From Hydnum rufescens UP504 (taxonomy: Eukaryota; Basidiomycota; Agaricomycetes; Cantharellales; Hydnaceae), in NCBI GenBank assembly GCA_014904985.1, contig MU129032.1, forward strand, positions 119,917-183,916: a stretch of 64,000 bases of DNA. Direction: 5' to 3'. The notes under the pieces are model-generated. The model did not search any database, was not told where the DNA came from, and was given only the letters and a program-made list of their open reading frames with translations. Shown in pieces: positions 1,639-64,000 of the stretch (position 1 is its first letter; the number at the start of each line of letters is the position of its first letter). A program made the position numbers and the translations under genes.

Positions 1639-4539
1639 ATGGACCTTCCTCGAGCCGTGTATGCGACCTACAACTCTGTCCGCGAGGACGCACCGTCATC
1701 ATGTCTTGGGGGCACTCGTGTTGCTATACTGGAGGAGATTCTGACATGGTCAGGGAGCACGAACGGCGAAAGACCACCTGTATACTGGCTCAGCGGACTC
1801 GCTGGCATCGGGAAATCGACCATCGCGAAAACCGTCGCTGAACGAGCGGAAGAGAAAGCCATGTTAGGCGCTACTTTCTTCTTTTCTCGGAACGACAAAC
1901 CTTTGCGAGATCCCGGGCTCGTACTACCGACGCTCGCTTTCCAACTCGCGCATTCGGACATTGCGTTCAAGGAGGCCATCGTGAGTGTCCTCAGACAAGA
2001 TCCGATAGCTGGGCGAAAGGAACTGTTGTCTCAGCTTCAGCAATTAATCTTGACGCCCCTTCTCACTATTAATCCCCATCGGAGCCCAGTACTCATCATT
2101 CTGGATGCCCTCGATGAGTGCGAAGAAAAGGGTGCTGCCGATATTTTGCGACTTGTATTTACCTACCTCATCCAAATACCTTTCCTCCGGATCCTGATCA
2201 CAAGCCGTCCACGACCTCACCTATCCTCGGTCTTCAGTAATGTCCGGAATCTCGCGCACACGGTTCTTCACGACATTGATGCATTCGTTGTTCAGCAAGA
2301 CATCCGCCTGTATATCTCCGCCGAATTGGCCAAAATTCCAGGGAAACTTGGTCTTGATATGCCTACTGATTGGGTGACGGAGGCCCAGAAGATCTTGCTG
2401 CTAGAGAAGTGCGGGAAGTTATTCGTTTACGCAGCGACGGCGATCCGCTTCATCGGGGACGATCGTGTCCAAGATCCTCGTACACATCTAAACCTTATAC
2501 TTAATAACCAATCCCTCCAACAAGCCGGAGTGACGCCGTATTCGCACCTGGACAGCCTTTATATGGAGGTCCTTCGTAACTCGGTTTCTCTATCTAATTA
2601 TCGAGAGATTCTGAAGCGATTTCAAATCATCATCGGGAGCATCGTGCTGTTGCGCGAACCCCTCCCACTCCATTCATTGGCCAAGTTCGTTCAGTACGAA
2701 CGATACGTCGTTGAGGCTAGTTTGCGTCATCTTCATTCAGTCATTGTTCCCCCTTCTGATGTTCACGATGCCCCTCGTATCTACCACCCTTCATTCCTCG
2801 AATTTATTACCGATCCTTCGCGATGTTCCATGGCGGAATTCGTGATTGCAGCCGAGCCAGAGCAGGAATTGCGCCATGCTATCCGGTGCTTTGAACTCAT
2901 GGCAGCACATCTAAAGCGGGATGTCGCTGAGATCTCGGATCCATCACTGCTGAACAGGGAAGTGCATGGATTTGAACGGAAGGTGAAAGAGGCGCTGTCA
3001 CCGGAGGTTCAGTATGCATGCCGGTACTGGGCATCCCATCTATCGCGTGTGGAGGTCGGGGAGATGACAATGATGGAGGCATTGGAGGCATTTGTAATGC
3101 GGTCAATTTTATGGTGGTTTGAAGCAATGAGTTTGCTTGGGAGTGTCTCCCATGCTGTGAACTCAATTGAGGAGGCACACCGCTGGGCGGTATGTTTATT
3201 TCTTATTGATCCTCAGTAGTGACTGAGTTCAGAATGATTCTGATTGCAGAAAAATTCAAGAAGCAAGGCAATTGTTGTAAGAATCTTATCCGATTCCCGC
3301 CGATTCATTCTCACACATGGGGAAGTGATAAGAGCAAGTGCACTGCATGTCTATCATTCTGCATTGCCTTTCACTCCACATGACACTGCACTGTACAAGG
3401 TGTATTGTGGAGATGGAAAGGATTCTATTAAGGTTCTCCAAGGCCTGGAGTCTGCATGGCTGCAGAACTTGAGTACTTTACATGGCCATTCTGATTGGGT
3501 TACAACTTGTGCATTTTCACCTGATGGATTGCACCTAGCATCAGGCTCCTATGATCATACTGTGCAACTGTGGGATGCCATATCTGGTGCATCCATCATA
3601 AAACTGGAAGGCCATTCTGATTGGGTGATGACAGTTGCATTTTCACCTGATGGATTGTGCCTGGCATCAGGCTCTGATGATCATACTCTACAATTGTGGG
3701 ATGCCATATCTGGTGCATCCATCACAATACTGGAAGGCCATTCTGGTGGGGTTTCAACTGTAGCATTTTCACCAGATGGATTGCACCTGGCATCAGGCTC
3801 CTCTGATCATACTCTACAGTTGTGGGATGCCACATCTGGCAGGTGCATATCAAAACTGGAAGGCCATTCTGCTTCAGTTTGGACTATTGCATTTTCACCT
3901 GATGGATTGTACCTGGCATCAGGCTCCTGGGATCATACTTTACGGTTGTGGGATGCCATATCTGGCACATCTATTGCAACATTAGAGGGCCATTCTGATG
4001 TGGTTCAAGAGGTTGCATTTTCCCTTGATGGTCTTACTCTGATTTCTCACTCAGAGGTGGAGACCTTCACTTGGGATTTGACTTCCCAGCCTCCCAACCT
4101 AGCCACTGGGTCATCCGCAGCAGCCCCTGGGCCTATTGTGGGCTTGACTCCACTCATTTGGTCTCTGCAAGGCCAGTGGATCCAAGTGAAGCACCAGGAA
4201 GATGATCATGCCCGACACATATGTTACATCCCACCACCTCACTTACCCACTATCCTTGTGTCAAGTCAGCAGACCCACTCCCGAATTGCAGTTGGGTGCC
4301 GTGATGGCCGTGTGATAATCCTTGCTGTTCTAAGTGACCCCTTTAATTGGCATTTTGGTGAAGACCCAATTTATACTGGGCTGATGCCTAGTGTTACACC
4401 TCCACATTCACCTCTGACCAATCATGACACCCCTTTTACAAATGAGGAAACCCCTCTCATGGATCATAATACCCTCTATCAAAAGCATGCCTGGGGCCAT
4501 AAAATCCTGCAATGGGTTAGGCTTATGTTCTGTTGCTAG
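1639..4539 (+). CDS. NACHT-WD40 (NLR-like) STAND NTPase
   Basis: Two exons join in frame across a 60-nt intron (3190-3249, GTATGT...TTGCAG), giving about 946 residues. The N-terminal part is a NACHT NTPase: P-loop GLAGIGKST at residues 53-61 and a Walker B-like LIILDALDE near residues 152-160, preceded by the LPRAVYATYNS segment typical of Agaricomycete NACHT proteins. The C-terminal part holds five WD40 repeats (GHSDWV...FSPDG...LASGS...LWDA). Such fungal STAND proteins act in non-self recognition and programmed cell death: the repeats sense a ligand and NACHT oligomerises. That role is known for the family and inferred here. The start at 1639 may be internal if an upstream exon exists. WD40 codons look more AT-rich than the NACHT exon, hinting at domain shuffling. 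Confidence 0.88.
3478..4070 (+). repeat. Near-identical tandem WD40-coding repeats (about 126 nt)
   Basis: Five units of about 42 codons follow each other at about 3480, 3606, 3732, 3858 and 3984. At DNA level blocks such as GGCCATTCTG and GCATTTTCACCTGATGGATTG-like segments recur almost unchanged, including synonymous positions. The fifth unit decays after its first half. This high internal identity is the pattern known for fungal HNWD-type recognition genes that reshuffle repeats. Confidence 0.85.
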
Positions 4540-5597
4540 CTAGTTAGATGTCCATCAATCACCTCCATGTAGTATTGTAAATCCGTGGGTTTCATAGGCT
4601 TTATCACTGATGCCCAGAAGAGCAGTGAAAGATCCAGTGTAAATGAGTGATACATAGGTCAAATGAGGAAAGCGACAGAAAGGGAAGGGGATGAGTGCGG
4701 AAACTCCCGTAGATGCTCTCTTGGACAACCTCTTCGGCGTCTTTGTCACTGCCGCTTCTCCTGCCGCTTGTCGATCAACAGCGGATCCCTTTGTGTTTCT
4801 CAAAAACCCCCGTTCAGGAACCTGTGTTTTCGGGTCTTGCTGATCTCTGAGTTAGAACCATTAACGGTGTTCTCACTTAATTTGCGACTCGCGGCAACAC
4901 TAACACCATTCATACTCTAGCCACTGTTTTCGGGCGTCGTGCCTTTGGCCCGAAACTAAGACTTATTCACTTCAACCTGGTAACATCAACAGAAAACTCT
5001 GTATTCGTTCTTATCACCTTATCTTTCTGAGATAGCGAGATATGTCGCCGCTAGTATCTGCAGCACCCCAAGCCCTGTCTGAACTGGGTTGATTTCTATC
5101 CTGGGATCGTCCAAAATTCTTGTTGTTTGCTTTGACCCATTCTCTCTCATCGCTGGTGGTTACTTGTGCAACAACCGAGATCCACGCGGTCGCAAGAGTC
5201 GTTGGTGGCTGCTCTCCTCGTTGATGGCGCTGCTGACATCTTATGAACTATTTGTCTCTTACTTGATGACTCTGATGCAGGAAATACACATCCCTCCGCT
5301 GAAGGAACTGGCATAGGTCTGTGCCCCATCAAGCTCACATTCGAGAGTCTTCAATCTGCAAATGAAGAAGTGAGATAAGGAAGTTGCAGCAGCTAATTAG
5401 GCCTGATCGATGAAGCAATGAGCCCTAGCAATCTGGTGAGTATGATTTGTACGCGCTCAAGGCCCACGCGCTTGGGTGGGCAGGGCTCGATATATCTTGC
5501 ATCCTGCAACGCTTTATTAATTGCTCAATGATTCCCGCTCTCCCGATTACCAAATGTCGCTACAACAATAACAATACAATGCAACGGATGTCGCGCG
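4540..5597. other. Intergenic, no gene seen
   Basis: Only short unrelated open frames occur. I see no family motif, no RNA gene and no clear repeat in this stretch between the NACHT-WD40 gene and the YAF9-like gene. Confidence 0.5.
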
Positions 5598-6566
5598 CTA
5601 TTGAGATTCCAATTCCTTTTTCAGTCTCTCCAGCTCTTGTTCCTTCTCGATTAATAGCGCTCGTTGCTTGTCTGTCTCCTCCACGATCGACCGCTTTGCG
5701 GCATCCAATCTCTCCCCTTCATCGCGCTCCAGGAGCGCAGTAAATTCGGGGGCCCATCTAGATCCTTGTGGAGCTAGTGAAGCAGTATGCGCCGGATTCG
5801 GTGGTACGGCACGCTTCTTCACTTTCGGTAATGGTGTCGGCGGGTGTGCCATGAGAATGTCGAGAAAGGCTTTTGGAGGATCGGTGAATACAATTTCATC
5901 ATATTGCCAGGCGTATACCGGCTCGAGGGGGGGTTGAGGTACGACAGAAACGATGGTGGCGGGATCGGCGCCTGGGGTAGTAGAAAGGTCAGGGACGACC
6001 CATGGATGAAGTTTTAGGTGGTGTTGGAAGTTTAGAGTCTTCTCTGCTGATTCTGAGACGAAGGTTATTCGGATCGAGATGTCGAATTCACCCCACCTAG
6101 AAAAGTCAGATGCCACGGTTCAATAAGTCGACCGTTAGTGCGGAGAATTTTATAGACTTTCCCTGTCTCCGTTACTTCAAAGGGAGATTTATCGACGTCT
6201 GGACAGAGCGTAAGTTTAAGGATTCCCGCCTCATTAGGGTTGGACGCGACGTACTTCGATTTGGGGTAGGATATGTTTCATGCAGCCTAAATGTGACGCG
6301 CTTGATGAAATAGCCGAGATCATCTGCACCACCAACAGAGTCCGATTTATCTGGGACAGACGCAGCGCTGCGAATTGCGACTGTCCATCTGTGAGTATGG
6401 TCTGGCGGGATTCCGCTTCCTCTTTCCGAGGCCGTGAGTGGAACAGCAGAATTTCCGTAAATAATCGGACGATGAATCACGACGCCCTACAACCCATCAT
6501 CTTAACAGGCTGTTTCCTGTTGGCTGCAGTATAGGGGAATATACGCACTCGAACGCGTTCAGACAT
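5598..6566 (-). CDS. yaf9: YEATS-domain protein, Yaf9/GAS41-like
   Basis: This is a reader of acetylated histones, shared in yeast by the NuA4 acetyltransferase and the SWR1 H2A.Z-exchange complex. Exon 1 (6566-6549) encodes MSERVR; exon 2 (6486-6255) begins GVVIHRPIIYGN and carries DHTHRWTV, YFIKRVTFRLHETYP; exon 3 (6198-6162) encodes VDKSPFEVTETG; exon 4 (6096-5598) begins WGEFDISI and ends in a coiled coil (KEQELERLKKELE). This is the full Yaf9 order of YEATS domain plus C-terminal helix. Introns 6487-6548 and 6199-6254 are canonical. The third (6097-6161) has a good CTAG acceptor but its donor reads GA instead of GT, one substitution from the motif. So the gene may be mis-spliced, mutated or misread there. 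The identity is clear from exon content. Confidence 0.9.
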
Positions 6567-7360: not shown

Positions 7361-9524
7361 TCAATAAGATAACCTTCGCACACCCTCATCCTCGGCAGAG
7401 AGGAAGTCCCATGTGGTGTCCCACTCCGAAGACGGCATTGACCCTTGATCTGAGCTACGTTGCAGTTCCAGGAGAGCATCTGCCGCATTAAAAGCATTAT
7501 CGAAATCCTCACTAGCCTTCACCAGGTCAGCGCCATCCACAGTTATCGGAGGACGCCTGCGAACACTCGATATCGATGGGACTTGCACCACAGGAAGCTT
7601 GAACAACCCCTTGCGAGGCGATGAGGGGTGGACATCCTCCGAAGTGGCCATTTGCCCTGAGGGCCTGAACTGGGGAGATGGCATTGAAAGAGGTAGAAAC
7701 GGTGAAGATATCCGCACAGTGGGGGTCGGTGATTTGGGTGATGCCTGTGCGTGGGTCAGGTTCGTGTTCGTTAAATGCCACCTGTCCGGAGATGAAGTAA
7801 TGACGACCTCTACGGCTCCCAAGCCTGACCGTGGGCGAATGGGTGTAGTTGGAGGCGTACGAGGAAGTATCAACCGCGGAGGCTTACGCTTGATTGGTGA
7901 AATGGGCCGGGTTTTGTCCAACTGGGTGGGATGCGAGGCAAAGTCACTAGACGTCATCACATTGGAACGATGAAGGGTAGGTGTCGTTTGTATCGGAGCT
8001 GTGTGTTGTTTCTTCAAGTTAGTCTTCGAAGGTGTCCCTGGTACGTCACCATCAATAGCGGTACGTCGCGCCTTTGGGGGTCTTCCAGTCTGGTTGGGCG
8101 GAGGTTTTTTACGTTTCCAATTTTTGGATGCCTCAAACGCATCCCGGTCGTCAATTGCCTTCGAGAAAGCTCCGACAACGGCCTGCAAGTCACCCTGAAT
8201 CCAAACATCGAAGACACCTTGCCATTCTCGCGATGGGACCGGAAAATCCAGGTTCAAATATATGGTTGAGGGCGACTGAATCAATGAAGACGAAGTGGTG
8301 TTTGCAGAAGCAGCATGAGTGGCCTGAACTGCTTTGGCGAACTCGCGGACGATGCGCTTGGTTCCGGGAACTTTAAGGCTTGACCCTGCCACAATGAGAA
8401 GGTCCGGTTTCGCAGAGGCCCTAAAACGTGGGGCAGTGACTTTGCTTGGAGTTGGAAGATATCCTTCGCTGCCAGCCATTGAACTTGGACTAGAATTTGA
8501 GGCTCCAGCCACATCACTCAGGCCTAGCAAATCCCTCCTAACGCATTCGCCCACGCCCTCGCCTTCCTGGTGCACTTCTCCGTAGAGGACAACAGAAGGT
8601 CGCATTGTTCCGATGCCTCGCTCGCGTTTCCCAATGAGCCGTCGGGTAGAGTTTAGAGAGGCGCATTGTGGACAAGGCACCGGGAGTCCCTGGGCCAGTG
8701 TGGACAATTGTGAAGAGAGCGGTATGGTGTTCGAGCATCGTTGGCAAGTAAGGTATTTGAGTGTACCATGCAAAGGTATACAACGCGGAGGTTTCGAGGG
8801 CCCTGGAAGTGGAGGGATATTGTCCGCAATCGAGCCTGAGTCGGAAGAGGTCTCCGATGGAATGGAAGGGGGTGGCGATGAGGTGACAGGGGGAATGATT
8901 TTAGAAGCTTTCTTAGAGGGCGAGTTCCTCTTTGGAGTATTCCAATGTGGTACGCCGCAAGTAAGGCCAGCTTTCTCTTCCAAATTGTCGATGTTTTGAG
9001 TGTAGAGACGGAGGAGCTGGCCTCGATCATCGAGAAGCTTTATGAAATCATGGAATGGTGTGGGACTGGCGGATGAGGAAATAGACGACAGCTGGGCAAT
9101 CATCTTGTAGAATAGGGACGTTGTTTGGGGTGTCTGTATTTTGGCCATGAACTACTGTGGGGATGCCATTTGAATAGAATGCTCACGTTGAATACGCTTG
9201 CATCAAAGAGGTCTTTGCCAGATGTTAAAAGTTCTTTCGGATTGTTCATTTTTAATGATTTGAACAAACCCTCAGAGGAGCGAAAGTCGGGAATCCCAGC
9301 AGCAACAGATATTCCTGCCCCTGAAACAGTCACAGCTAAGTATCACTGATATCGCGAATAGCTAGGGGACGTAGAAACGCACCGCATACCATCACGATCC
9401 GTTTGGCCCCCGCAATGGCCCGGGCGACCGCAAGGATATTCTCCTCGGAAGCGGATCGTACATCGAGAAAACTGGGCAGTTGCGAAGGCAGATGATCTGG
9501 ATCATCCACCAATGATACAGTCAT
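7361..9524 (-). CDS. hst4: Sirtuin, Hst3/Hst4-type NAD-dependent histone deacetylase
   Basis: Three exons (9524-9383, 9320-9187, 9133-7361) join in frame through introns of 62 and 53 nt to give 682 residues. The family removes acetyl groups from lysines using NAD+, and Hst3/Hst4 act on H3K56ac for genome stability. Visible motifs: GAGIS (48-52), FRSSEGL, TQNIDNLEEKAG, catalytic His in PLHGT (residue 214), zinc cysteines CQRC (222, 225) and CPQC (246, 249), LYGE and VAGSSLKVPG. A Ser/Pro-rich insert before the catalytic His and a long basic, low-complexity tail (about residues 430-682) match the Hst3/4 branch. The start at 9524 (MTVSLVDD) is preferred; an in-frame Met at 9575 is possible. No disruption was seen. 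Functional assignment to H3K56 is inference from the family. Confidence 0.92.
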
Positions 9525-32924: not shown

Positions 32925-34212
32925 TTAACGACTAGAGACCTGGGTCCAGACCCAAGGAACCGAGGCCGGGAACAGTAGTGGATTAAACAGGCCATGCTTG
33001 GCTGCGACGGTACGGATCCAATCGGCGTCGGCGTTGGGGAACTGCCAGGCCATGGCACCCCCATTCCAACCCTTTGCCGTGCCTTGGGACATGCATCCAG
33101 CTAGGGTATTTGGGTCGATATAACCGGTATTGGCGTCGCGCTTAGTTCCGGGCTTCCCGATGACGATTTTGTTCAATGGAACACCGGCGGTGGCGGAGAT
33201 TTCGAAGACCGAGGTCTTAGGATAAGTTGCACTTGACTTTGTCAGGAGACCGCGGCAGTTGGTGTAGTCGGAGCCCTGTTAAATTTGTCCATTGTCAGGA
33301 AGATGGGCAAGGGGGGTACGAATGGACCGCATGCCTGGTTATAAAATTGGATATTGTACCAGTCAATAAGGCTCCCGACTTCTTTATGCACTTTAGTGTA
33401 AGCGCCGGCAGTATACTTCGGCGAGAACCAAGGCGCAAGCGCTGGTGGACGAAGAACATCAGCATCCCTCGTAGAGTGATTCCGACCAGTCAAACACTAA
33501 CGGGCATGGGTGATGAGGTATTGCCCGACGGGAAGGGCATTACGAAGAGTCCGGGTGAAGGTGATCAGCCATTTCTCTCCCCTTCCATCAGCGGCGCTAC
33601 AATAAAGTATGCGTTAATACGGGATATCTGCTTCGTAGGGGTGAATAATTGCGTACTTGATGGCTTCAAAGTCTTCGAAGTCAACATCGATACCATCCAA
33701 ATGGTTCTTCTTTACCCAGGATGCCATGGAATTAGCAGTGCGAGTTGGATCTGCACCAGCGGATGCAGGCGTGTCTGTAGCCCCGAAGGCGCTGACCATG
33801 AGCTTGATACCGGCGGCAGCATACTTGTTCTTGGTGGATATTTGGGTATCTGAGCTAAGCGAAGCCCACTGGGTGGCCTGGTCTACAGGCCCACGGAGGA
33901 GCAAGAACGACAGGATGCTATAATAGGTCACAGAGTCAGGCCGGCAGCGTGATGCGATTTAAAGACAACAAACAAAGTGTTGAATCCGGAAATCTTGGAA
34001 ACGTCAGGTGGACCGGTCTGGCCGGACACCCAAGCTAATGAACATGGCAAATTAGACCTCCACGTACCTATTCAATGCAGGACTACCGACGTACCATTAT
34101 GATAAACGACGAAGTGGGGGGTCGTCCCATCGGGGGCACGCTCAAGTGGAATTCCCTGGACCAAAGCGGCGAGGATGGTTGTACCAGCAGCAAACAAAGA
34201 GACCGCCCTCAT
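32925..34212 (-). CDS. GH18 chitinase, copy A, lacking a chitin-binding module
   Basis: Six exons (34212-34095, 34034-33974, 33917-33657, 33596-33502, 33441-33335, 33275-32925) join in frame to 330 residues. It has a signal peptide (MRAVSLFAAGTTILAALVQG) and the GH18 active-site motif LDGIDVDFEDFE, whose Glu is the acid/base residue. Downstream come APWFSPKYTAGAY, WYNIQFYNQ and AMAWQFPNADADW. The enzyme should hydrolyse chitin outside the cell or in the wall. The last intron (33276-33334) has a GC donor, as in copy B. After the catalytic domain the protein ends in PWVWTQVSSR, which aligns with the very end of copy B's chitin-binding module. The linker and most of that module have therefore been deleted here. 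No frame break was seen. Confidence 0.9.
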
Positions 34213-34693
34213 GATGAACTGGAATGATGGAATGGACTGAAAGGGGCCCAAGATCCTCACGCTTTTATACTGTAAAGCCCTCTCGCCAGGATCGCCTTTC
34301 TAGGCGTAGCCATTGGGCTCTGACCAGACGTGAACCATCATCGGGACATTGCCTCAGGACCGGGCTTCGGGAAAAGTCCGAAGCAAATAATGCAGACAGC
34401 ACAGAGTGCGTCGAAAGTAATTGGCGGGAAAAATAACGGAATCCCCATCATGATCGCAGAAAGTGCGGCACCAGCAGAAGATGTGTCTCAGTACAGGGGG
34501 AAATCCCGCAAACCCAGTATCGCCAGTCGAGCACACGATTTCGCCGCCGCGAAATCCACCCTAGTGTAAACACATAGGCGCTAAGTGCTGACTCTTGGGG
34601 GTGAGCAAAGCTGAACGGAGAGTTCCGATCCATGCACTCACTACAATTCACTGCAACCAACCCAGACTCGTATCCAGTCACGCGGGTGGTAAA

Positions 34694-35820: not shown

Positions 35821-36316
35821 CGGGTAGTTAAAAATCATGCTAACATGGCAAGTATCATCTGCTCAGGCCGTGGTGGGATTACACTGTGTTCCCACTTCCG
35901 GTGAGATTGGAGTCTTTTAATACTCAATCCAGTAACTAGAGCCACAGCACTCATCGCCTCTCACTTTCTGCTGTGCTCTAGACAGGACTTTAGAATGCCA
36001 CTAGGGAGCCTTCGGCTTGGTTTCAGTCTATACCATCTCTCTTCTCTTTCATATACGATCCCGTTGGTGTCGTGGTTCACTGGACAACTCTTAGAATGTG
36101 CAGGATGCGAGACACCAACACATTCCTAGCCTTTGATTCCTCACTTGTTCAAGATATGACGCTCATCTGCCCTCATCCGCAGATATTTCGCCCGGGACCT
36201 TGTTGGAATTGGCGATGGGCGAGCTATAGCGCTCATTGCTTAGTCAGCGTGTCCTCCTAGATAGTTCTCGGGATATACTCAAAGGCTCTATCTTTCCTCT
36301 CATTGTGCGAATATAA

Positions 36317-36958
36317 GGGCCAGTTCGGCTGCATGAGAAACGCTTCTGAAGCCTGTTTCTGCAAGGTGTTTCTGAAAGTGTTTCTGCAATTTAGAAGTAC
36401 CTATTTACTTCCGACAGTTGGTAATTACCAGGCTTGCTGACCAGAATTCACGTGTCGGCCCATTTTGGGAACATCCGGAAGCAAAACCGGGAATTCGGCG
36501 CCGCAACTCAACGTTGGCCTAGGTGAGGGGGTGTATAAGCCCATTTAGGCCCATAAAATGCACAGAAGCAGACTCTTAGTTATATTTTAAGCTCACGAGA
36601 GAAGTCCCGGGTGATTTTGAAGAAGATAATTGAAAATTCCCGTTTTGGGAATTTTTGATTATCTTCTTCAAAATTGCCTGGGACTGCTTGAGTAAGCTTA
36701 AAATATAACTAAGAGTCTACTTCTGTGCATTTTATGGGCCTAAACGGGCTTATACACCCCCTCACCTAGGCCAGCGTTGAGTTGCGGCGCCGAATTTCCG
36801 GTTTTGCTTCCGGATGTTCCCAAAATGGGCCGGCACGTGAATTCTGGTTAGCCCGGGTAATAGACCAACTGTCGGAAGTAAATAGGTGCAGAAACACTTT
36901 CAGAAACACCTTGCAGGAACAGGCTTCAGAAACGTTTCTCGTGCAGCCGAAGTGGCCC
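36317..36958. mobile_element. Fold-back MITE, PIF/Harbinger-like, with TAA target duplication
   Basis: The 642-bp element is almost entirely one hairpin: each arm is about 310 bp, centred near 36643 where TCCCGTTTTGGGA sits. Ends are GGGCCAGTTCGGCTGCA and its complement with few mismatches. It is flanked by TAA on both sides (36314-36316 and 36959-36961), the three-base TWA duplication typical of PIF/Harbinger, and the GGGCC-type ends agree. Unit B lacks the insertion. No coding capacity. Confidence 0.8.
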
Positions 36959-37657
36959 TAAGTGGCTCCCCACCGATTCTTCAACAGACCTGTCTCGAAT
37001 CAAGTCGGTTTCAATCCTCGTCACATATCAATCCAGCTGACCGCCAGACACCACGCCGGGGTTCCGCGTCGCGAAAATAGAAATGTGTTCCGGGTTCAAT
37101 CGATGCGAACTCAATTGATCAGAGGCCTCTGGCGGCAGCGGCATCAGAGTGTGAGTGTGATCCACAAGTTGGCCTAGTTTGACGAGACTAGTTGCGTGGA
37201 ATGAGCGGCAGTGGATGGGCGTGTGCGTCCAGGTTGTGCGCAATTAAGGAAATATACTGTATCTACATCCAGGCAGTTACATTACAAGGCAAAATCAGGG
37301 GGACTGTGTCGTCGTGCCAGGAGTGGGCCGATGGAATGGACCTCGAAAGGTATATTCGTGGTAGAGAGCGGTCGGTTACAAAGCTGATCAACGAAAATGG
37401 TCGTTAGTAATATCAATTTCAAGTGCAGAAATCCTTGACGTTGTCTTTCAGTTATGAAATATCCGAGCAAATGGACGCTGGCAGCGATTTGAGAAAATGT
37501 ATACTAAATTTGATTACATCTAGGGGTACGAGCGAAAATGGAAGGGAAAAGACCGTATTATAGTAGATCTGATGTGAAGCATATCCAAGAAATTACAATA
37601 GACATGAAAACCAGCTTCAATTATCCACCTCAGACATTTTCTCGGAATGCTGAAAGT

Positions 37658-39198
37658 TTAACAACTAGAGACCTTGGTCCAGACCCCCGTGCCAGCGGCT
37701 GGGAGCAGCAGCATTAACAAATTATGGGATCCAGAGGGTTACCAAGCTGACTAACCTGGATTTTCATTCTGAGTCCACCACCCAGCCTTGTAGATGCTGC
37801 CATTGTAAGATACGAGCTGGCCACCAGTGTAGGCAACATTGGGGTCCCAAGCAGCAGCCGAGCAATCACCACCACCGCTAGGGGGTTGAGAAGGGGATGG
37901 GCTGGGAGCAGGAGTAGTTGTAGAGGTCGATCTAGCGGTTGATCTAGCGGTTGATCTAGCGTCGATCTACCACCAACAGGCCATGCTTGACTGCGAACCG
38001 TGGTGATCCAAGCGGTGTCAGCGTGGGGGAATTGCCAAACCATGACACCCCCATTCCAACCCTTTGCTGTGCCTTGGGCCATGCATCCGGCTAGGGTATT
38101 TGGGTCGATATAACCGTTATTGGCGTCGGCGGTAGTTCCGGGCTTCCCGATTACCAATTTATCCAATGGAACACCGGCGGTGGCGGAGATTTCGAAGACC
38201 GAGGTCTTAGGATAAGTTGCACTTGACTTCGTCAAGAGACCAGAGCAGTCGGTGTACTCGTTCTGTCAAATTTGCTCATTGTCAGGAAAATGGGAAATGG
38301 GGAAACGAATGGACTGCATGCCTGGTTATAAAATTGGATATTGTACCAGTCAATAAGGCTCCCGACTTCTTTATGCACTTTAATGTAAGCGCCGGCAGTA
38401 TACTTCGGCGAGAACCAAGGCGCAAGCGCTGGTGGACGAAGAACATCAGCATCCTTCGTAGAGTGATTCCGACCAGTCAAACACTAACGGGCATGGGTGA
38501 TGAGGTATTGCCCGGCAGGAAGGGCATTACGAAGAGTCCGGGTGAAGGTGATCAGCCAGTTCTCTCCCCTTCCGTCAGCGCGCTACAGTAAAGTATGCGT
38601 TAATACGGGATATCTGCTTCGTAGGGGTGAATAATTGCGTACTTGATGGCGTCAAAGTCTTCGAAGTCAACATCGATACCATCCAGATGGTTCTTCTTTA
38701 CCCAGGATGCCATGGAATTAGCAGTGAGAGTAGGATCTGCACCAGCGGACGCAGGCGCGTCTGTAGCCCCGAAGGCGCTGACCATGAGTTTGATACCGGC
38801 GGCAGCATACTTGTTCTTGGTGGATATTTGGGTATCTGAGCTAAGCGAAGCCCACTGGGTGGCCTGGTCTACAGGCCCACGGAGGAGCAAGAACGACAGG
38901 ATGCTATAATAGGTCACAGAGTCAGGCCGGCAGCGTGATGCGATTTAAAGACAACAAACAAAGTGTTGAATCCGGAAATCTTGGAAACGTCAGGTGGACC
39001 GGTCTGGCCGGACACCCAAGCTAATGAACATGGTAAATTAGACCTCCGCGTAGCTATTCAATGCAGGACTATCGACGTACCATCATGATAAATGACAAAG
39101 TGGGGGGCCGCCTGGGCGGAGGCACGCTTAAGTGGAGTTCCCTGGACCAGAGCAGGGAAGATGGTTGCTCCAGCAGCAAACAAAGAGATAGCTCGCAT
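37658..39198 (-). CDS. GH18 chitinase, copy B, with CBM5/12-type chitin-binding module; frame disrupted
   Basis: Exons 39198-39081, 39020-38960, 38903-38643, 38582-38489, 38428-38322, 38262-37756 and 37698-37658 mirror copy A. Signal peptide MRAISLFAAGATIF, catalytic LDGIDVDFEDFD and the GC-donor intron (38263-38321) are kept. After a Thr/Pro/Ser linker the last part encodes a small chitin-binding module: AAWDPNVAYTGGQLVSYNG, KAGWWTQNENP and, after a final intron, GTGVWTKVSSC. Two single-base losses disrupt it. At 38581 exon 4 begins CGCGCTGA where copy A has CGCCGCTGA, which would stop translation soon after. At 37960-37961 one G is missing from a 12-bp linker repeat, putting the binding module out of frame. 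It is either a pseudogene or affected by sequence errors. Confidence 0.87.
37926..37969 (-). repeat. 12-bp tandem repeats in the chitinase B linker
   Basis: On the plus strand units like GCGGTTGATCTA recur three to four times and encode Ala-Arg-Ser-Thr on the minus strand. The outermost unit near 37960 is 11 bp because one G is missing, which shifts the frame into the chitin-binding module. Confidence 0.75.
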
Positions 39199-39959
39199 GG
39201 TGAACTAGGAGAGAGTAGAAAGAGAGGCAATGCAAGACGAAAGAATGACTTGACTGATGCTCTCCAAGACCCAGGATGCTCTGGCTTATATATCGCAGAG
39301 CCCTTGGTGAGGCACAGGGCTCTCGCTAAAATCGCCTTTCCAGGCGGAACCAGCGGCGTCTGGCCAAATGCGAGCCATCATGGGAACATTGCCTCAAGAC
39401 TGGGCTCCGGGAAAAGTCCGAAGAAATAAAAGAGACAGCCAAGAGTGTGCATCGAAGGCAATTGGCAGGAAGAATGTCGGGACTCCCATCATGATCGCAG
39501 AAAGTTCCGCGCCACCAGAAGATACTTGGCAGAGTATGTCTCAATACAGGGGGGAGTCCCGAAACAACAGCATAGCTAGCACACGATTCCAGGGCTGGGA
39601 AATCCATCCTGGGTGAAGATAGGCACTAAGCGCTGACAACAGTTTTTGGCGCTGGATAAATCCGACTGGAGAGTTCCGAACCATGCATTACATAATACTT
39701 GCGCGACTGTTACGTTTACGTAAGAAAGGGATCTAGGGAATGAGGTCGTCAGGTGATTTCCATATTTACTATATTTTTTCCATGGCAGTGCTTCTAGGGC
39801 AGTGCAACTTCGAAGAGAACGACACCCGACATTCCCTCTTTATCTCAGGCTTCCATTCACTCCCTAATTCCGCGGTCAATTGAGCATGACGTGAATTCGT
39901 TACCAGGCACCCCTTAGCTCGATGGCTCCACCTTGTCAATGGTGTTCCCGTGACTAGAA

Positions 39960-56365: not shown

Positions 56366-57059
56366 ACTCAGGACTATTTTATACATATATAACACCCTCC
56401 TGATCTGCTGCTGAGTTGTCAGGCAAGGCGTTATAGAAGAAGGATTGGGAGCTCTGATGACTGTCAAATCAAACTCTGGTTCAGCCAGTGTGTAGATGGG
56501 AGACTGTATTTCTGTTTTTATTCAATGGGCTGGTTCGCTCTGATGGTTGATCACTCTCTAACAAGTTGTGTATGGTATTCAGTGATGGTAAGGCAATGGT
56601 ATGGACTAGCTATAGTCAATGATATATCATGGGATGCTTGTGAAAGGCTTATACGTGTTGTATTGAACTGTTTACTGCTATTTGTGTGTACCTATTTGTG
56701 TCCTCCTGGTCAAAATGCAGATTATAAAGAGGGTACTAGACTAGTTTAAGCTTGATTCAGTGTGTCAATGTGTTTCTTTCTTCTTCTGACTTGACTTTGT
56801 TATTACTCACCTTTCCTTGGATGTCCAGCAACTCTAACCTTAGGTCCTGCAACTATCCTTGGCTTAGTATTTCACGTAGAGGGCTTCCAGTGACTTCAAC
56901 CTTGTATATGACTTAGCTCCAGATGGCTTTAGATCAGTACTCTCTTCAGATGCAAGCAGATTTTGTAGACAGTAGTATATTCCAGTAGTGAGAAGATGGG
57001 GGGATACAGGAAAATCTACCAGCTTTTATACCTTTCTGAAGGTGGCTGTGTTTAAAGAA

Positions 57060-57265
57060 TATGACTCACTCCTAGGTGAGTCATATGTGAGAACAAAAGG
57101 GTTGTCAAGGAGGGTGAGTCATTCATAAGGTGGTTGCATGATAGGTGAGTGATTCATAAACAGAACAAAAGGGTTGCTAAGAAGGTGTTATCTTTCATAA
57201 AGTGGTTGCAAGGAAGGTGAGTCATTCATAAACAGAACAAAAGGGTTGCTAAGGAGATGTTATCT
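57060..57265. repeat. Tandem repeats of about 55-70 bp
   Basis: Units built from GTGAGTCATTCATAA, AACAGAACAAAAGGGTTG and CTAAGGAGGTGTTATC recur about three times between 57070 and 57265, with small indels between copies. No function seen. Confidence 0.7.
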
Positions 57266-57469
57266 TTCTTATCTGTGAGGTTCTAGAAGTTATTTGTGGC
57301 AATGGGAGATGAAATCAAAGGATATTTCCGAGTTCTTGGAGATTAATTTGTTTGTAGTCCAGTGGTTAAGATGTTTTTGTTGCTGGTTGATAATGGGGAC
57401 AAGTGCATGGGATGGGATTCGATGCAGAAACAACAGTTTGCATCTGTAATAGACATTCTTGGTATCATT

Positions 57470-57800
57470 AGATGCGGATTTTTAACAGCTTTCTGGGAGT
57501 GGTGGTTTCGAGCGGATCCGGTGTAAACTGACAGAGAAATTCATTTTTTACTGATGGGTGTTGATTCTGACAGTAATATTGTTCTGCAGAGTTCAGTTTT
57601 GATCTGTTCTTCGTGCGCTCAGTACCGTTGGATGCGGATTTTTTATATCTTTCCAGGCGCGGTTGTTCCGAAAGGATTGAATGCGAACTGACGGAGAAAT
57701 TTGTTTTTTTACTGGAAATCCCAGATTTTGACAGTAAAATTGGTCTGGAGAGTGCATTTTTGGTCCGTTCAACTTGTGTTTAGTACCATTCGAAAGGTGT
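57470..57800. repeat. Direct repeat of about 160 bp, two adjacent copies
   Basis: Two neighbouring copies (about 57472-57630 and 57632-57795) each begin GATGCGGATTTTT and share CTGAC-GAGAAATT, TTTTTACTG, GACAGTAA and TCTG-AGAGT blocks in order. They are clearly diverged. Non-coding. Confidence 0.65.
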
Positions 57801-59004
57801 GAATCATGGCTTTCCAAGAGTTATATGGGTGTACCTCTCTGATCAAAACTGATGGAGTAATCGAATGAACTCTGTTTTCATGCATAGTCGTAATTAATTT
57901 CGTAATAGGTCACATGATCATTCCAATGGCTGGGATCAATGGATATTTGCATTTTCTGATACTTGATGTTTTTATCTTCCACAGATGGTGAACACTTTTA
58001 ATTGCAGCCCCTTGCAATGTCTTTTATCTTTCCCTGGTTTATACAACTGAACCTGAGTTGCCTTTCCTTGTGTAATACCACCATTTCCACCCTTCAAACC
58101 AAAGCGAAATTTCCTGCAAGTTTATGCTTTGAATTTGGTGATAGAAGTCGCTTATTGTTGGGTATGGATCTTTTAATTTCCGCGTTTTCAATAGGTTTTT
58201 CTTTGTATAAGTCTTGGATTATCAAGCAAACACCCACTTTGGATTACATTGTTCAGGTGGAGGTCAAGAGAATCTGTGGAGAAGATTTGACGAGGCACAG
58301 ATATGTTCTCTGGAATGCGGAGGAGAAGGACAAATTTGATTTTGAGGTTGTGACGTAACGAGGGTCAATTGTTGAATGGTTCTCTGAACTCGTACATTGT
58401 CCAATTGACTCTTTTTGTCTTTATAATGCCGTCAAATGCGACTTGGGGATTTGGGAAATAACGGATGATCATATGGGATTCAAGGTGGGTGAATGGTTCA
58501 GGATAGAGATAGTTGAATTGCCGGTAAATGATTGTGTGAAGTTCCAATGGCATGGTGAACACTTTTGATTTGTACCTTGGGGATAGTTGTTCGATTTGCT
58601 TTTATGTCATTTTTGCATCCGTAGGTCTGTAATCATGTGTCAACCTTTAATTTCGCTTAGGGATCTCATAAGTTTGGGTTCCTTCATTGATCAGCAGGGT
58701 CATTTCCATCAACATCTTGCTGTCATTTTTATATGTCAATGTCATTGAAATGCAGTGGAGGAGGTGGAGGTTTCATTTTTGAAAATTATCATACGACAGC
58801 AGGGATTGTGTGAGTGAAATATGGGTTTGGACACGCATCATCCATCTTGCCAAATATTACAAGGACTAGGCCAATTCCAATGAAGAGACGACCATCTGAA
58901 CTGAAGTCCTCGGTTCGTGTTTGGCTCAAGTAGGCATAATAGAAGTGGTCGGTGTTGCCTTCAATATTGGGATAGAATACACCAAATTCTCCTACATGCA
59001 GTGA
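57801..59004. other. AT-rich interval without a recognised gene
   Basis: Frames at 58002-58358 (plus; contains SAFSIGFSLYKSWII) and 59025-58789 (minus; contains VGEFGVFYPNIEGNTDHFYY and LFIGIGLVLVIFGKM) look faintly protein-like but match no family and could not be extended. The minus-strand frame starts inside the left edge of the large palindrome. Confidence 0.35.
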
Positions 59005-59028
59005 TAGGTCAGGCTGGTCAGTCAAATT

Positions 59029-59082
59029 GGGGACCTAATTAGGTACCATTTTCGGGCAGAAAATGGTACCTAATAGGTCCCC
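59029..59082. repeat. Terminal hairpin of the left arm
   Basis: GGGGACCTAATTAGGTACC and its complement flank a short GGGC loop, forming a stem of about 24 bp. The mirror copy lies at about 63912-63965. One base (A) differs between stem strands. Confidence 0.8.
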
Positions 59083-59336
59083 AGACAGTATGGCCGAAAT
59101 TCGGCCAAAATACGGCCATTCCGATTCATTTCAGCCAATCCATGGCTGTGCTAGATTATTTATTTATTTATTATTATTATTACTACTATAATTATATACA
59201 TATTACGCTATATACATATTATCCCCCCCCCGGGGTCTGCCACCACAGGGGGGCAGTTCATGCAGGTCGCAGGTTTGCAGGTGGTGGGCCAGGTTAATAA
59301 ATAACACATTAGTAGAAGAAAAGTACCTTAAATCCA

Positions 59337-60614
59337 CCACACCCGCTGCAGCGGGTGTGGCTCATATGCCCCAGTCGGGGGCCTGGGCTCCATTTGGGCA
59401 GACTCCCGAGGGAGTGTTTGCGGTTTTCGTTCGTACAGGCGTTCGCGGTTTTCGTTCGTGCGGTCGTGCGGGGTTTCGTTCCTGGTTTTCGTTCGCGGTG
59501 TGTCGTTCAGTGGGTTGTTGTCTGGGGTCGCGCCGGGTTTTGTTGGTGGGTCGGTGGATTCGGGCTTGGTGGTGTAAGTTTCATGTGTTAGCTAAAATTA
59601 AAAGAATACATACATTATATGGCCACACACCCGCCGCGGCGGGTGTGTGGCCCTATTCTCCTGCTCTTCTGGTTCGTGGTTTCGTATGGGCAGGGTTGGG
59701 TTGGTGGTGTACTCGTTGGCTTGGGGGCCCGCGCATTGAGGTTGGACAGCTTGACCTAGAATAGAAATAAAACATCAGTTATATCAAAACTCGCGCAAAA
59801 AGAGCAGCGACTGCTGCTCTTTTTGCACGTTTGCAGTTATTAAAAAAAAACATATCTAATATTGCCACACACCCGCCGCAGCGGGTGTGTGGCTCCCTAC
59901 TTTCGTCTTGGTGGTGTCGTGTGCCTGCCTTCATTCGTTTATTCGCCCGTTTGGGCATTCCAATTCGCATGACGCGGGGGCTTTCGGTCGTGGGGGGAAT
60001 ATCCTGGCCTAGAATAGGAAATAAAACATTAGTTAAAAATTTAAAAACAGCGCAAAAAGAGCAGCAAGTGCTGCTCTTTTTGCGCCGGGTGGGAACATGG
60101 ACTTAGCTTATATAGAACCACACACCCGCCGCAGCGGGTGTGTGGTTCGCATGGCCACTCAGGCGGTGTATCACCACCTCTCGTGTTTTCGTTCGGGCTC
60201 GGTTGGCTGGGTGTTGTTTCGTTGGGTTTTGCATCACTGGGTTTTGCATTGCAGGGTTTCGTGTCGCTGGGTTTCGCGTCGCTGGGTTTCGTGTTGTTGG
60301 GTTTGGTCTCGTTGGGTTTCACATCGTGTGGTGTCGCATCGCATGGTGTTGCGTCGCATGGTGTTGCGTCGTTGGGTCGTGTCGTTTCGTTTGGCGTGTT
60401 TTCGGTTCGCGTATTACCGTATGGGGTCTGACTGGCTGGGCCTCATCCTTTGGCACCCGGGACCAGGCTATGACCTAGAATAATAAAGGGTTGTTAGTAA
60501 AAAAGTTCAAAGCAGCGCAAAAAGAGCAGCTTTCACTGCTCTTTTTGCACTGTTGTATCTACTAGAAAAAATACTCACCTTGTGACCACACACCCACAGC
60601 AGCGGGTGCATGGT
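59337..60614. repeat. Left-arm array of alternating A and B mini-palindromes
   Basis: A palindromes (CCACACCCGC / GCGGGTGTGG type): 59337-59360, 59621-59652, 59864-59893, 60116-60147, and a degraded one at 60584-60614. B palindromes (GCGCAAAAAGAGCAGC / GCTGCTCTTTTTGCGC type): 59793-59828, 60050-60085, 60515-60550. After the first two A copies the order is B-A, B-A, B-A. GC-rich cassettes of about 100-330 bp follow each A, and most end in CCTAGAATA(G)GAAATAAAAC-like sequence before the next B. Confidence 0.85.
60220..60375 (+). repeat. 15-bp degenerate tandem repeats in a left-arm cassette
   Basis: Units of the form CGCTGGGTTTCGTGT recur about ten times with drift (GGGTTTTGCATCACT, GGGTTTCGCGTCGCT, GTGTTGCGTCGCATG). 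The mirror array lies at about 62620-62775. Confidence 0.75.
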
Positions 60615-60675
60615 CGTGCGTTTGCCTTTTCGGCGGTTCCTTGTTGTGGTTGCGGAGATGGGAAGCAAGATGGAG

Positions 60676-61310
60676 ATTCAACGCCGGCAATTGCCGATAC
60701 TCAAGAAGTGCCCAAGCGCTGGCGCTGCAAGCACAGTACACAATAGTACCAAGCATGTATATGTGAAATAGATACTATATAATAAACATTTGTCCAGGAA
60801 AACCCGAAGAAGACGATGATAATGAGTTAGAGCTCAATAAGGCATGAGATCGCTAATTGCAGAGTGGATTGGGCCACTTCTACACATCAGAATTGGCCCA
60901 AATTTAAATATAGTAGTTTATATATCAGCCTACATGGGCAATTGACTATCTCGGACGATTTTCGCATTTTTCAATTTTTCACGCTTCAATTCCCTAATGG
61001 GAATTGAAGGCATGAAAAATTGAAAAATGCGAAAATCGTCCGAGATAATAATCGCCCATGGAGTGTATATTAACACTACTATATTTAATTTGGGCCAATT
61101 CTGATGGCGTAAAGTGGCCCAATCCCACTCTGTAATTAGCGATCTCATGCTTATTAGCTCTGACTCATTACCATCGTTTCTTCGGGTTTTCTGACACATT
61201 TTTATTATATATCTATTTATAATATACATGCTTGGTATATTGTGTTACTGTGCTTGCAGCGCCAGCACTTAGGCGCTTCTTGAGTATGGCATTTGCGGCG
61301 TTGAATTTCG
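60676..61310. repeat. Internal palindrome P (about 635 bp) in the left arm
   Basis: This segment is itself a complete inverted repeat centred near 60999 (CAATTCCCTAATGGGAATTG). Outer parts share ATACTCAAGAAG / CTTCTTGAGTAT and GCGCTGGCGCTGCAAGC / GCTTGCAGCGCCAGC. Its mirror in the right arm is 61684-62325, centred near 61995. Confidence 0.85.
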
Positions 61311-61339
61311 CACTCTACGCAGCCACACCCGGCAAGCGA

Positions 61340-61650
61340 CGCACACGACCACGACACAAGCAACAGCAAGCAACAGCAGCAACAAGGCAGCAACAGCAGC
61401 AACAGCGCACAGCAGCAGCAACCACGCAGCAACAGCAGCCAACAGCCCGTGTGCGGCAGCAACAGCAGTCAGTGTGTGGTCGTGTGGTCCGTGTCATGGG
61501 TCGTGGTCGTGCGCTGTTGCTGCTGCTGTTGCTGCTGCTGTTGTGTCGTTGCTGCTGTTGTGCTGTTGCTGCTGTTGCTGCTGTTGCTGCTGTTGCTGTG
61601 CTGTTGTGCTGTTGCTGTTGTGTCGTGGTCGTGTGGTCGCTTGCACGGTG
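61340..61650. repeat. CAG/CTG-rich centre of the giant palindrome
   Basis: The left half is built of AACAGC units and the right half of TGTTGC/GTTGCT units, so the palindrome turns over in a trinucleotide-like tract. The unpaired centre is about 40-60 bp around 61470-61520 (contains GTGTGTGGTCGTGTGG). Confidence 0.8.
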
Positions 61651-61683
61651 TGGCTGCGTAGAGTTGCGAAATTCAACGCCGGC

Positions 61684-62325
61684 AATTGCCGATACTCAAG
61701 AAGCAGCCTAAGCGCTGGCGCTGCAAGCACAGTACACAATAGTACCAAGCCATGTATATTATAAATAGAATACTATATAATAAAATGTGTCCAGGAAAAC
61801 CCAAAGAAGACGATGGTAATGAGTCAGAGCTCAATAAGGCATGAGATTCGCTAATTACAGAGTGGATTGGGCCACTTCTAGCATCAGAATTGGCCCAAAT
61901 TTAAATATAGTAGTGTTATATATACACTCTACATGGGCCGATTAATTATCTCGGACGATTTTCGCATTTTTTCAATTTTTCATGCCTTCAATTCCCTATT
62001 TAGGGAATTGAAGGCGTGAAAAATTGAAAAATGCGAAAATCGTCCGAGATAGTCAATCGCCCATGTAGAGTGTATATATAACATTACTATATTTAAATTT
62101 GGGCCAATTCTGATGCTGTAGAAGTGCCCAATCCACTCCTGCAATTAGCGATCTCATTGCGCTTATTGGCTCTAACTCAATATCATCGTCTCTTCGGGTT
62201 TCCTGGACAAATGTTTATATTAGTATCTATTCACAATATACATGCTTGTACTTTGGTGTACAGCTGGCTTGCAGCGCCAGCGCTTGGGCGCTTCTTGAGT
62301 ATCGGCAATTGCCGGCGTTGAATCT
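61684..62325. repeat. Internal palindrome P' in the right arm
   Basis: Mirror copy of P, centred near 61995 (CAATTCCCTATTTAGGGAATTG). Because P is symmetric, P and P' are also direct repeats of each other. Confidence 0.85.
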
Positions 62326-62383
62326 CCATCTTGCTTCCCATCTCCGCAACCACAACAAGGAACCGCCCGAAAAGGCAAACGCA

Positions 62384-63660
62384 CGACCACGCACCCGCTG
62401 CTGCGGGTGTGTGGTCACAAGGTGAGTATTTTTTCTAGTAGATACAACGGTGCAAAAAGAGCAGTGAAAGCTGCTCTTTTTGCGCTGCTTTGAACTTTTT
62501 TTACTAACAACCCTTTATTATTCTAGGTCATAGCCTGGTCCGGGTGCCAAAGGATGAGGCCCAGCCAGTCAGACCCCATACGGTAATACGCGAACCGAAA
62601 ACACGCCAAACGAAACGACACGACCCAACGACGCACACCACGCGACGCAACACCACGCGACGCGACACACAGCGATGCGAAACCCAACGAGACCAAACCC
62701 AACAACACGAAACCCAGCGACGCGAAACCCAGCGACACGAAACCCTGCAATGCGAAACCCAGCGACGCAAAACCCAACGAAACAACACCCAGCCAACCGA
62801 GCCCGAACGAAAACACGAGAGGTGGTGATACACCGCCTGAGTGGCCATGCGAACCACACACCCGCTGCGGCGGGTGTGTGGTTCTATATAAGCTAAGTCC
62901 ATGTTCCCACCCGGCGCAAAAAGAGCAGCACTTGCTGCTCTTTTTGCGCTGTTTTTAAATTTTTAACTAATGTTTTATTTCCTATTCTAGGCCAGGATAT
63001 TCCCCCCACGACCGAAAGCCCCCGCGTCACGCGAATTGGAATGCCCGAACGGGCGAATAAACGAATGAAGGCAGGCACACGACACCACCAAGACGAAAGT
63101 AGGGAGCCACACACCCGCTGCGGCGGGTGTGTGGCAATATTAGATATGTTTTTTTTTAATAACTGCAAACGCGCAAAAAGAGCAGCAGTCGCTGCTCTTT
63201 TTGCGCGAGTTTTGATATAACTGATGTTTTATTTCTATTCTAGGTCAAGCTGTCCAACCTCAATGCGCGGGCCCCGAGCCAACGAGTACACCACCAACCC
63301 AACCCCGCCCATACGAAACCACGAACCAGAAGAGCAGGAGAATAGGGCCACACACCCGCCGCGGCGGGTGTGTGGCCATATAATGTATGTATTCTTTTAA
63401 TTTTAGCTAACACATGAAACTTACACCACCAAGCCGAATCCGCCGACCCACCAACAAAACCCGGCGCGACCCCAGACAACAACCCGCTGAACGACACGCC
63501 GCGAACGAAAACCAGGAACGAAACCCGCACGACCGCACGAACGAAACCGCGAACGCCCTGTACGAACGAAAACCGCAAACACTCCCTCGGGAGTCTGCCC
63601 AAATGGAGCCCAGGCCCCCGACTGGGGCATATGAGCCACACCCGCTGCAGCGGGTGTGGT
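62384..63660. repeat. Right-arm array of A and B mini-palindromes
   Basis: Mirror order of the left array: A-like 62384-62415, B 62450-62485, A 62852-62883, B about 62914-62950, A about 63108-63138, B about 63172-63207, A about 63350-63380 and A about 63635-63659. Loop bases show small differences from the left arm (CCGCAGC against GCTGCGG), as expected for diverging arms. Confidence 0.8.
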
Positions 63661-64000
63661 GGATTTAAGGTACTTTTCTTCTACTAATGTGTTATTTATT
63701 AACCTGGCCCACCACCTGCAAACCTGCGACCTGCATGAACTGCCCCCCTGTGGTGGCAGACCCCGGGGGGGGGGATAATATGTATATAGCGTAATATGTA
63801 TATAATTATAGTAGTAATAATAATAAATAAATAAATAATCTAGCACAGCCATGGATTGGCTGAAATGAATCGGAATGGCCGTATTTTGCCGAATTTCGGC
63901 CATACTGTCTGGGGACCTATTAGGTACCATTTTCTGCCCCGAAAATGGTACCTAATTAGGTCCCCAATTTGACTGACCAGCCTGACCTAGAATCAGTTGG

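Follow-up and report, generated by a model that had tools for sequence, protein, structure and literature searches.

The last 5 kb of a 64,000-nucleotide stretch of the Hydnum rufescens UP504 genome (the window; positions 119917-183916 of contig C124, GenBank MU129032.1, in the 63-Mb, 539-contig assembly GCA_014904985.1) are occupied by a nested palindrome at 59005-63989. We judge it most likely, with a probability of about 0.78, that the outer palindrome is an assembly fold-back of one transposon half at the contig end, the mirror being inferred from the sequence. The family to which this half belongs appears, from the sequences compared, to be real: a dispersed, non-autonomous hAT-like DNA transposon of ~5.4 kb with 8-bp target duplications and a central palindrome of 640-660 bp.

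The presence of the 5-kb inverted repeat in the assembled sequence was confirmed by self-blastn of the region, which gave a single inverted match of 59005-63989 to 63989-59005 (94.1% identity, 5,076 columns, 118 mismatches and 126 gap openings, every position pair being counted twice). An earlier note on this DNA had described a nested inverted repeat with diverged arms, inner palindromes and hairpins at the tips, and self-blastn bore this out: each arm contained one inner palindrome (60673-61309, 86.3%, with a central hairpin of ~106 bp, and 61668-62326, 87.9%). Self-comparison placed the tip hairpins at 59028-59083 and 63910-63966. The coordinates of the note were off by a few bases at most: the transposon end, beginning with CAGGCTGG, is position 59010, and 5 more flanking bases are common to both arms. 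The left arm (59010-61466, forward strand) starts with CAGGCTGGTCAGTCA, corresponds to the first ~2.45 kb (the 5' half) of the transposon and aligns with the element of locus L009 up to its position 2475. The right arm (61467-63984, reverse strand) is the same 5' half mirrored, probably by assembly fold-back of the same locus. Between the inner palindromes lies a CAG/CTG-rich, error-rich junction zone (61310-61667). The contig ends together with the window (183916), 11 bases beyond the palindrome. No coding gene that would explain the palindrome was found, in agreement with the note.

A genome search with one arm yielded at least 646 matches (37 of the 1,409 first-look candidates were scored), and 20 family loci (L009-L028) were fetched. 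Full-length copies measured 5,376 bp (L009), 5,419 bp (L012) and 5,386 bp (L015); in all three the first 2.45 kb corresponded to the window arm and the second half was a different sequence. The element ends are CAGGCTGGTCAGTCA (5') and TGACTGACCAAGGTG (3'), and five of the nine loci with both ends in one orientation were flanked by an 8-bp target duplication at ≤1 mismatch, exact in L012, L015, L021 and L028 and with one mismatch in L009. L020, L023, L025 and L026 had no such duplication at this threshold; L023 showed a 7-bp repeat by eye. The terminal inverted repeats are short and imperfect (CAGGCTGGTCAGTCA against inverted CACCTTGGTCAGTCA, 12 of 15 positions alike by hand count) and the ends read CA...TG. 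The exact 14-base 3' end occurred 356 times in the genome (188 + 168), and its reversed control 0 times. The 8-bp duplications, the ends and the 356 copies of the 3' end fit a non-autonomous hAT-like transposon; the P-element superfamily also makes 8-bp target duplications. The hAT dimerisation domain PF05699 had 90 genome matches, and no transposase partner with the family ends was seen in the four of these loci that were read (~3.2 kb each). The mobile family suggested in the earlier note gained support from the many copies and the target duplications, and the nested inner palindrome is present again in other copies. A solo origin of the inner palindrome was rejected, as it was accompanied by flanking element sequence in those of the listed matches that were read. 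Among the arm copies L009-L016, the outer 1,600 positions differed mostly by CpG to TpG/CpA changes (28-69 in seven of these eight other copies and 4 in L009), as expected for methylated repeats. In one locus (L023) the copy seems to be inserted in an H1-like hairpin of another such element (3' flank ACCACACACCCACCCAAGCGGGTGTGG), a nesting within the family. Another locus (L016, with 5,378 N) has a scrambled join at 5379-5749, where the arm folds back on itself over ~350 bp.

The mirrored arrangement was sought among the best 21 arm copies in the matches listed, the two window arms included, and at none of the 19 other copies was a mirrored arm joined at the inner end. Fourteen of the 19 were fetched (left out were those on contigs C415, C417, C50 and C95 and the second on C55), and each locus held one arm, or fragments of one, with other sequence behind it; L014, L016, L018 and L019 contain N stretches. 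At L015 a second copy starts 2.6 kb past the outer end in opposite orientation, so that the outer ends face each other, which makes it a separate copy and not a mirror. No pair of 5' ends with a target duplication was present in the 20 family loci, and no mirrored outer ends were found ≤30 bases apart, a result without bearing on wider mirrors. The proposal of the earlier note that the 5-kb palindrome is itself a mobile unit or a maintained structure was not supported, since the full-length copies that were read consist of the arm and a different second half, and the palindrome ends lack a target duplication. Its proposed genome search with one arm returned the dispersed copies with target duplications that a mobile family should have and no other mirrored copy among the matches listed. 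It had also named the signs of an assembly join, namely the lack of a second copy and a read-level breakpoint near 61497. The first of these was observed within the same scope, and the second has a partial counterpart in the left/right junction, which the sequence places at ~61459-61467 within the error-rich hairpin/CAG repeat.

The flanks were examined with the help of the sequence into which the left arm is inserted, a dispersed repeat at 56430-59009, the tested part of which had 42 genome matches listed at ≥79%, the window included. Copies of this host repeat at L030, L031, L032 and L034 read GATAGGT|AGTG across the insertion site; a small indel is present there in L033, and L035 and L036, which are more distant, differ. 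For the left insertion, the 8-bp target duplication would be TGATAGGT (59002-59009, forward strand), which the four empty sites continue with AGTG, and host-repeat sequence resembling AGTGCGAGTTG is expected past the insertion. The flanks of the palindrome, TGATAGGT and ACCTAGAA, do not match and thus form no target duplication, and the right flank ACCTAGAATCAGTTGG is neither the host-repeat continuation nor a target duplication. The 16 bases from the right end to the contig end (63985-64000, reverse strand) resemble instead a noisy copy of the left flank. The 5 end-adjacent bases are those of the left flank (12 of 20,000 random window sites do as well), and in an anchored flank alignment the left flank scored 7.0, above 17 of 17 other copies (best 5.0), a score reached by 155 of the 20,000 random sites. 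The only genome occurrence of ATTCTAGGTCAGGCTGGTCAGTCA (≤2 mismatches) is at the window end, and the expected right junction, the element 3' end followed by TGATAGGT, was not found in the assembly (three matches, each with 2 mismatches). The true second half of the left insertion is therefore missing from the assembly or altered.

Both arms become error-rich toward the centre. Pairwise comparison among the five clean copies L009, L010, L012, L013 and L015 gave 4-10 gap openings, compared to 23-39 for the left arm against other copies (23 with L014), 28-44 for the right arm (30 with L014) and 50 between the two arms; L016, which lies beside a gap, had 21-29 against the five clean copies. When indel events were scored against the column majority of these five, which are hence self-judged and flattered, the left arm had 26 (23 from 60631 inward) and the right arm 24 (17 from 62502 inward), L011 had 19, L015 had 11 and the others 0 or 1. 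Inner transversions on a ten-sequence yardstick numbered 18 in the left and 22 in the right arm, and 0 in L009 and L013, 1 in L010, 2 in L015, 5 in L011 and L012, 6 in L014 and 100 in L016. In the outer left arm, CpG transitions accounted for 20 of the 21 counted substitutions. The junction itself falls in a CAG repeat and an H1 hairpin, where the left arm aligns to element position 2475 and the right arm to ~2518-2527.

Over the outer 1,600 positions, 17 changes were confined to the left arm, 12 to the right arm, 6 were shared and 1 was of another kind, so that 23 derived sites are carried by the left arm, 17 of them not in the right arm. All 17 left-only changes are C to T or G to A, and 8 are in no other copy with a letter at that position. 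Five of the 6 shared changes are of the same type, and two of the shared sites, 59271 and 60253, are likewise absent from every other copy that has a letter at the site. In our reading, two misaligned indel blocks (59440-59449 and 60328-60330) account for 11 of the 12 right-only rows and the last, 59692, is a site at which the copies are divided, which would make the clean derived sites of the right arm those that it shares with the left. With each of seven other copies the left arm has 1-3 derived sites in common, and the right arm has 0-3 with every other copy. An initial view that the outer parts of the arms come from unrelated copies was dropped after this comparison.

The contig end, the error gradient, the shared variants and the resemblance of the flanks together make it most likely that the right arm is the left locus reversed, with noise and partial consensus correction. 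The marks of an assembly fold-back are found here, namely a mirror of the locus that includes its flank, an error-rich centre, a contig end and no second copy among the matches listed. The real object would be one insertion of the non-autonomous hAT-like element (~5.4 kb, CAGGCTGGTCAGTCA...TGACTGACCAAGGTG, with an 8-bp target duplication) into an older repeat; only the first 2.45 kb of the element would precede the point where the contig goes wrong. From the copy structure, duplications, error gradient, variants, flank and contig end we infer that the locus was appended a second time in inverted orientation, either through a long read that was itself palindromic (inverted chimeric) or through a graph walk reversing in the hairpin/CAG repeat near 61467. 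In a later correction step, reads of other copies may have pulled the spurious outer arm toward the family consensus, and the contig would stop just beyond the repeat boundary. Several results weigh against this reading. The right arm lacks the 17 left-only changes, so that the correction step must be assumed, and just two of the six derived sites that the arms have in common are exclusive to them; with L016, which is far richer in derived sites, the left arm has 7 in common, against 6 with the right arm. L011 has 21-25 gap openings against the five clean copies although it lies inside another contig, so indel noise alone is no mark of a false join. The match between the flanks covers few bases, the assembly yielded no right junction of the expected form, and the argument is weakened further by the lack of mirrored copies holding only among the matches listed.

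A true inverted duplication of this locus, in which breakage or template switching at an element hairpin produced a palindrome that exists in cells, would equally give the 6 derived sites and 5 flanking bases common to the arms; the hairpin/CAG repeat at the centre is a plausible turn-round point, and some hairpin loops, which are inverted between copies, suggest strand exchange at hairpins. Equal ageing of two real arms would not, however, yield 17 left-only and near 0 real right-only changes, and with the error-like centre and a contig end 11 bases on, we regard such a duplication as improbable. The right flank unlike the host continuation, the sole occurrence of ATTCTAGGTCAGGCTGGTCAGTCA (≤2 mismatches) at this end and the privacy of only two of the six shared sites would also suit two truly adjacent family insertions in head-to-head orientation, both broken off at almost the same internal point. 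This arrangement is considerably less probable still, as it needs breaks at near-identical element positions (2475 and ~2518-2527) and chance identity of the 5 flanking bases. A fold-back transposon family with the 5-kb palindrome as its mobile unit would account for the mobile ends and the at least 646 arm matches, and it is largely refuted by the asymmetry of the copies, the lack of another mirrored copy among the matches listed and the lack of a 5'..5' pair with target duplication in the 20 loci; several copies made up mostly of inverted repeat and bounded by target duplications, the mark of a fold-back element, were not seen in this material.

FB, TFB and Galileo are fold-back elements with long inverted repeats; the assembled copy shares such repeats with them, whereas here nowhere but the contig end was a long inverted repeat observed, and the full-length copies that were read are asymmetric. 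Palindromic (inverted chimeric) read artefacts resemble the window in that a stretch is followed by its own reverse complement. PMC13265396 treats them in whole-genome-amplified DNA, and the sequencing method of the present assembly may differ from that. The palindrome looks like a hairpin-rich repeat that ended a contig in a false mirror, and until reads support it, the 5-kb palindrome ought not to be presented as a stable part of the genome.

The family merits study of its own: the genome holds 1,263 exact H2 hairpins, and where intron signals flank H2 they lie in one orientation only. Two hairpin motifs had 12 and 15 matches in the window, all within the element, against 0.66 and 0.24 expected (≤2 and ≤1 mismatches, respectively), so that the hairpin content of the palindrome is beyond chance. 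H1 (CCACACACCCGC..GCGGGTGTGTGG) occurs in the left arm at 59623-59650, 59865-59892 and 60118-60145, and H2 (GCAAAAAGAGCAGC..GCTGCTCTTTTTGC) at 59795-59826, 60052-60083 and 60517-60548. The genome count of H2 had a reversed control of 0, and because H2 is its own complement the forward and reverse searches count one set of sites. The loci L009-L028 contained 359 perfect hairpins of ≥11 bp, compared with 1 after a simple base shuffle. Stem pairs, picked from L009 and followed in five other, related copies, gave 2,053 gap-free cells (177 were set aside), of which 1,930 were unchanged and 111 changed on one side (67 broken, 32 G-T and 12 Watson-Crick). Both sides were changed in 12 cells (10 Watson-Crick, 1 G-T, 1 broken) against 2.2 expected under independence, an expectation that is too low because CpG pairs with CpG in the stems and mutates fast. 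With the partner slid by 1-2 bases, 0-6 double changes with ≤1 Watson-Crick were counted. Loops inverted between copies (TTCG/CGAA at element position 3818 in L013, GGCG/CGCC at 4129 in L012) point to exchange between hairpin arms in DNA, through which compensated changes could arise without selection on RNA. Rfam gave 0 matches in the window at gathering thresholds.

Many H2 hairpins seem to lie within intron-like units, with spliceosomal-intron signals around them from which splicing itself is predicted. One such unit, found by eye, is at 60475-60578 on the reverse strand (GTGAGT donor, H2, CTAAC branch-like site, TTCTAG acceptor), with an orthologous unit in L009 and a mirror copy, also read by eye, at 62422-62526 on the forward strand. 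Among 216 H2 hairpins with ≤3 substitutions and clean flanks in 26 loci, 87 had a donor (GTRAGT) to one side and, to the other, a branch-like CTRAY together with YAG; the signals were present in both orientations in 0 and in neither in 129, and 9 of 520 control positions away from H2 in the same loci had intron signals. A looser count of 251 hairpins gave 98 complete H1-donor-H2-branch-acceptor units, 94 of them distinct. The second half of L009 contained nine candidate introns of 94-114 bp, one with a changed donor, and by the same rule L012 and L015 had eight each. Units on the opposite strand were few (one each in L009, L012 and L015, two or three in L023, L025 and L026), so that fewer units support reading the first half outward. 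The T content of L009 was 11% in the exons between introns and 36% in the introns. A protein-coding spliced reading was rejected for the second half of L009, as stops remained in all three frames after removal of the nine candidate introns; the longest open stretch was 217 aa of T-poor sequence, and a 160-aa part of it had no relative at E 0.01 among 38 candidates.

The family looks real and oddly built, and its hairpin and intron-like arrays make it a newly seen variation on hAT-like transposons. Ds-like elements and long miniature inverted-repeat transposable elements (MITEs) of the hAT group have 8-bp duplications, CA...TG ends and short terminal inverted repeats. The present family agrees with such elements in these features, with repeats that are imperfect and no transposase found inside; it differs in its arrays of two hairpin types, the many H2 in intron-signal units and the 640-660-bp central palindrome, and a transposase sharing its ends was not identified in the four PF05699 loci that were read. 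Introners are many similar introns inserted as single units in host genes. The family recalls them in the abundance of its similar intron-like units, which have a stable hairpin inside, whereas these units are arrayed inside a large transposon and a single unit in a host gene was not demonstrated: at the fetched H2 sites, H1 adjoined H2 in six of six. A transposase supplied in trans would presumably move the family. The central palindrome (60673-61309 in the left arm) may act as a divergent promoter-like core, with outward-read halves that would carry the intron-like units, every one of which would have a hairpin in its intron and often another where the exon ends. It is a tentative and rather doubtful extension of this arrangement that the family constitutes a non-coding DNA transposon of a new kind, with two divergent, multiply spliced transcription units, the splicing of which would release hairpin-array RNAs; if true, these RNAs would serve the element's own mobility or its escape from silencing. 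Among the titles and abstract openings surveyed, no published account of the family was seen, a weak indication that it is undescribed.

Elsewhere in the window, a near-perfect palindrome of ~640 bp at 36316-36959 (88% self-inverted, with a central hairpin and the ends GGGCCAGTTCGGCTGCA and TGCAGCCGAAGTGGCCC) looks like a palindromic MITE, and blastn gave no match between it and the inner palindrome of the 59005-63989 element. It is flanked by a direct repeat of ~1.7 kb (32986-34636 and 37975-39687, 84.8%). The region 1639-4539 contains open frames that we take, from the look of the sequence, to be NACHT-like and WD40-like, with an 81% tandem repeat at 3484-4031. At 7361-9145 lies a sirtuin-like open frame that places the host among the basidiomycetes, probably near Cantharellales; it matched Cantharellus anzutake best (55%), with Tulasnella and Mycena as the next named sources.

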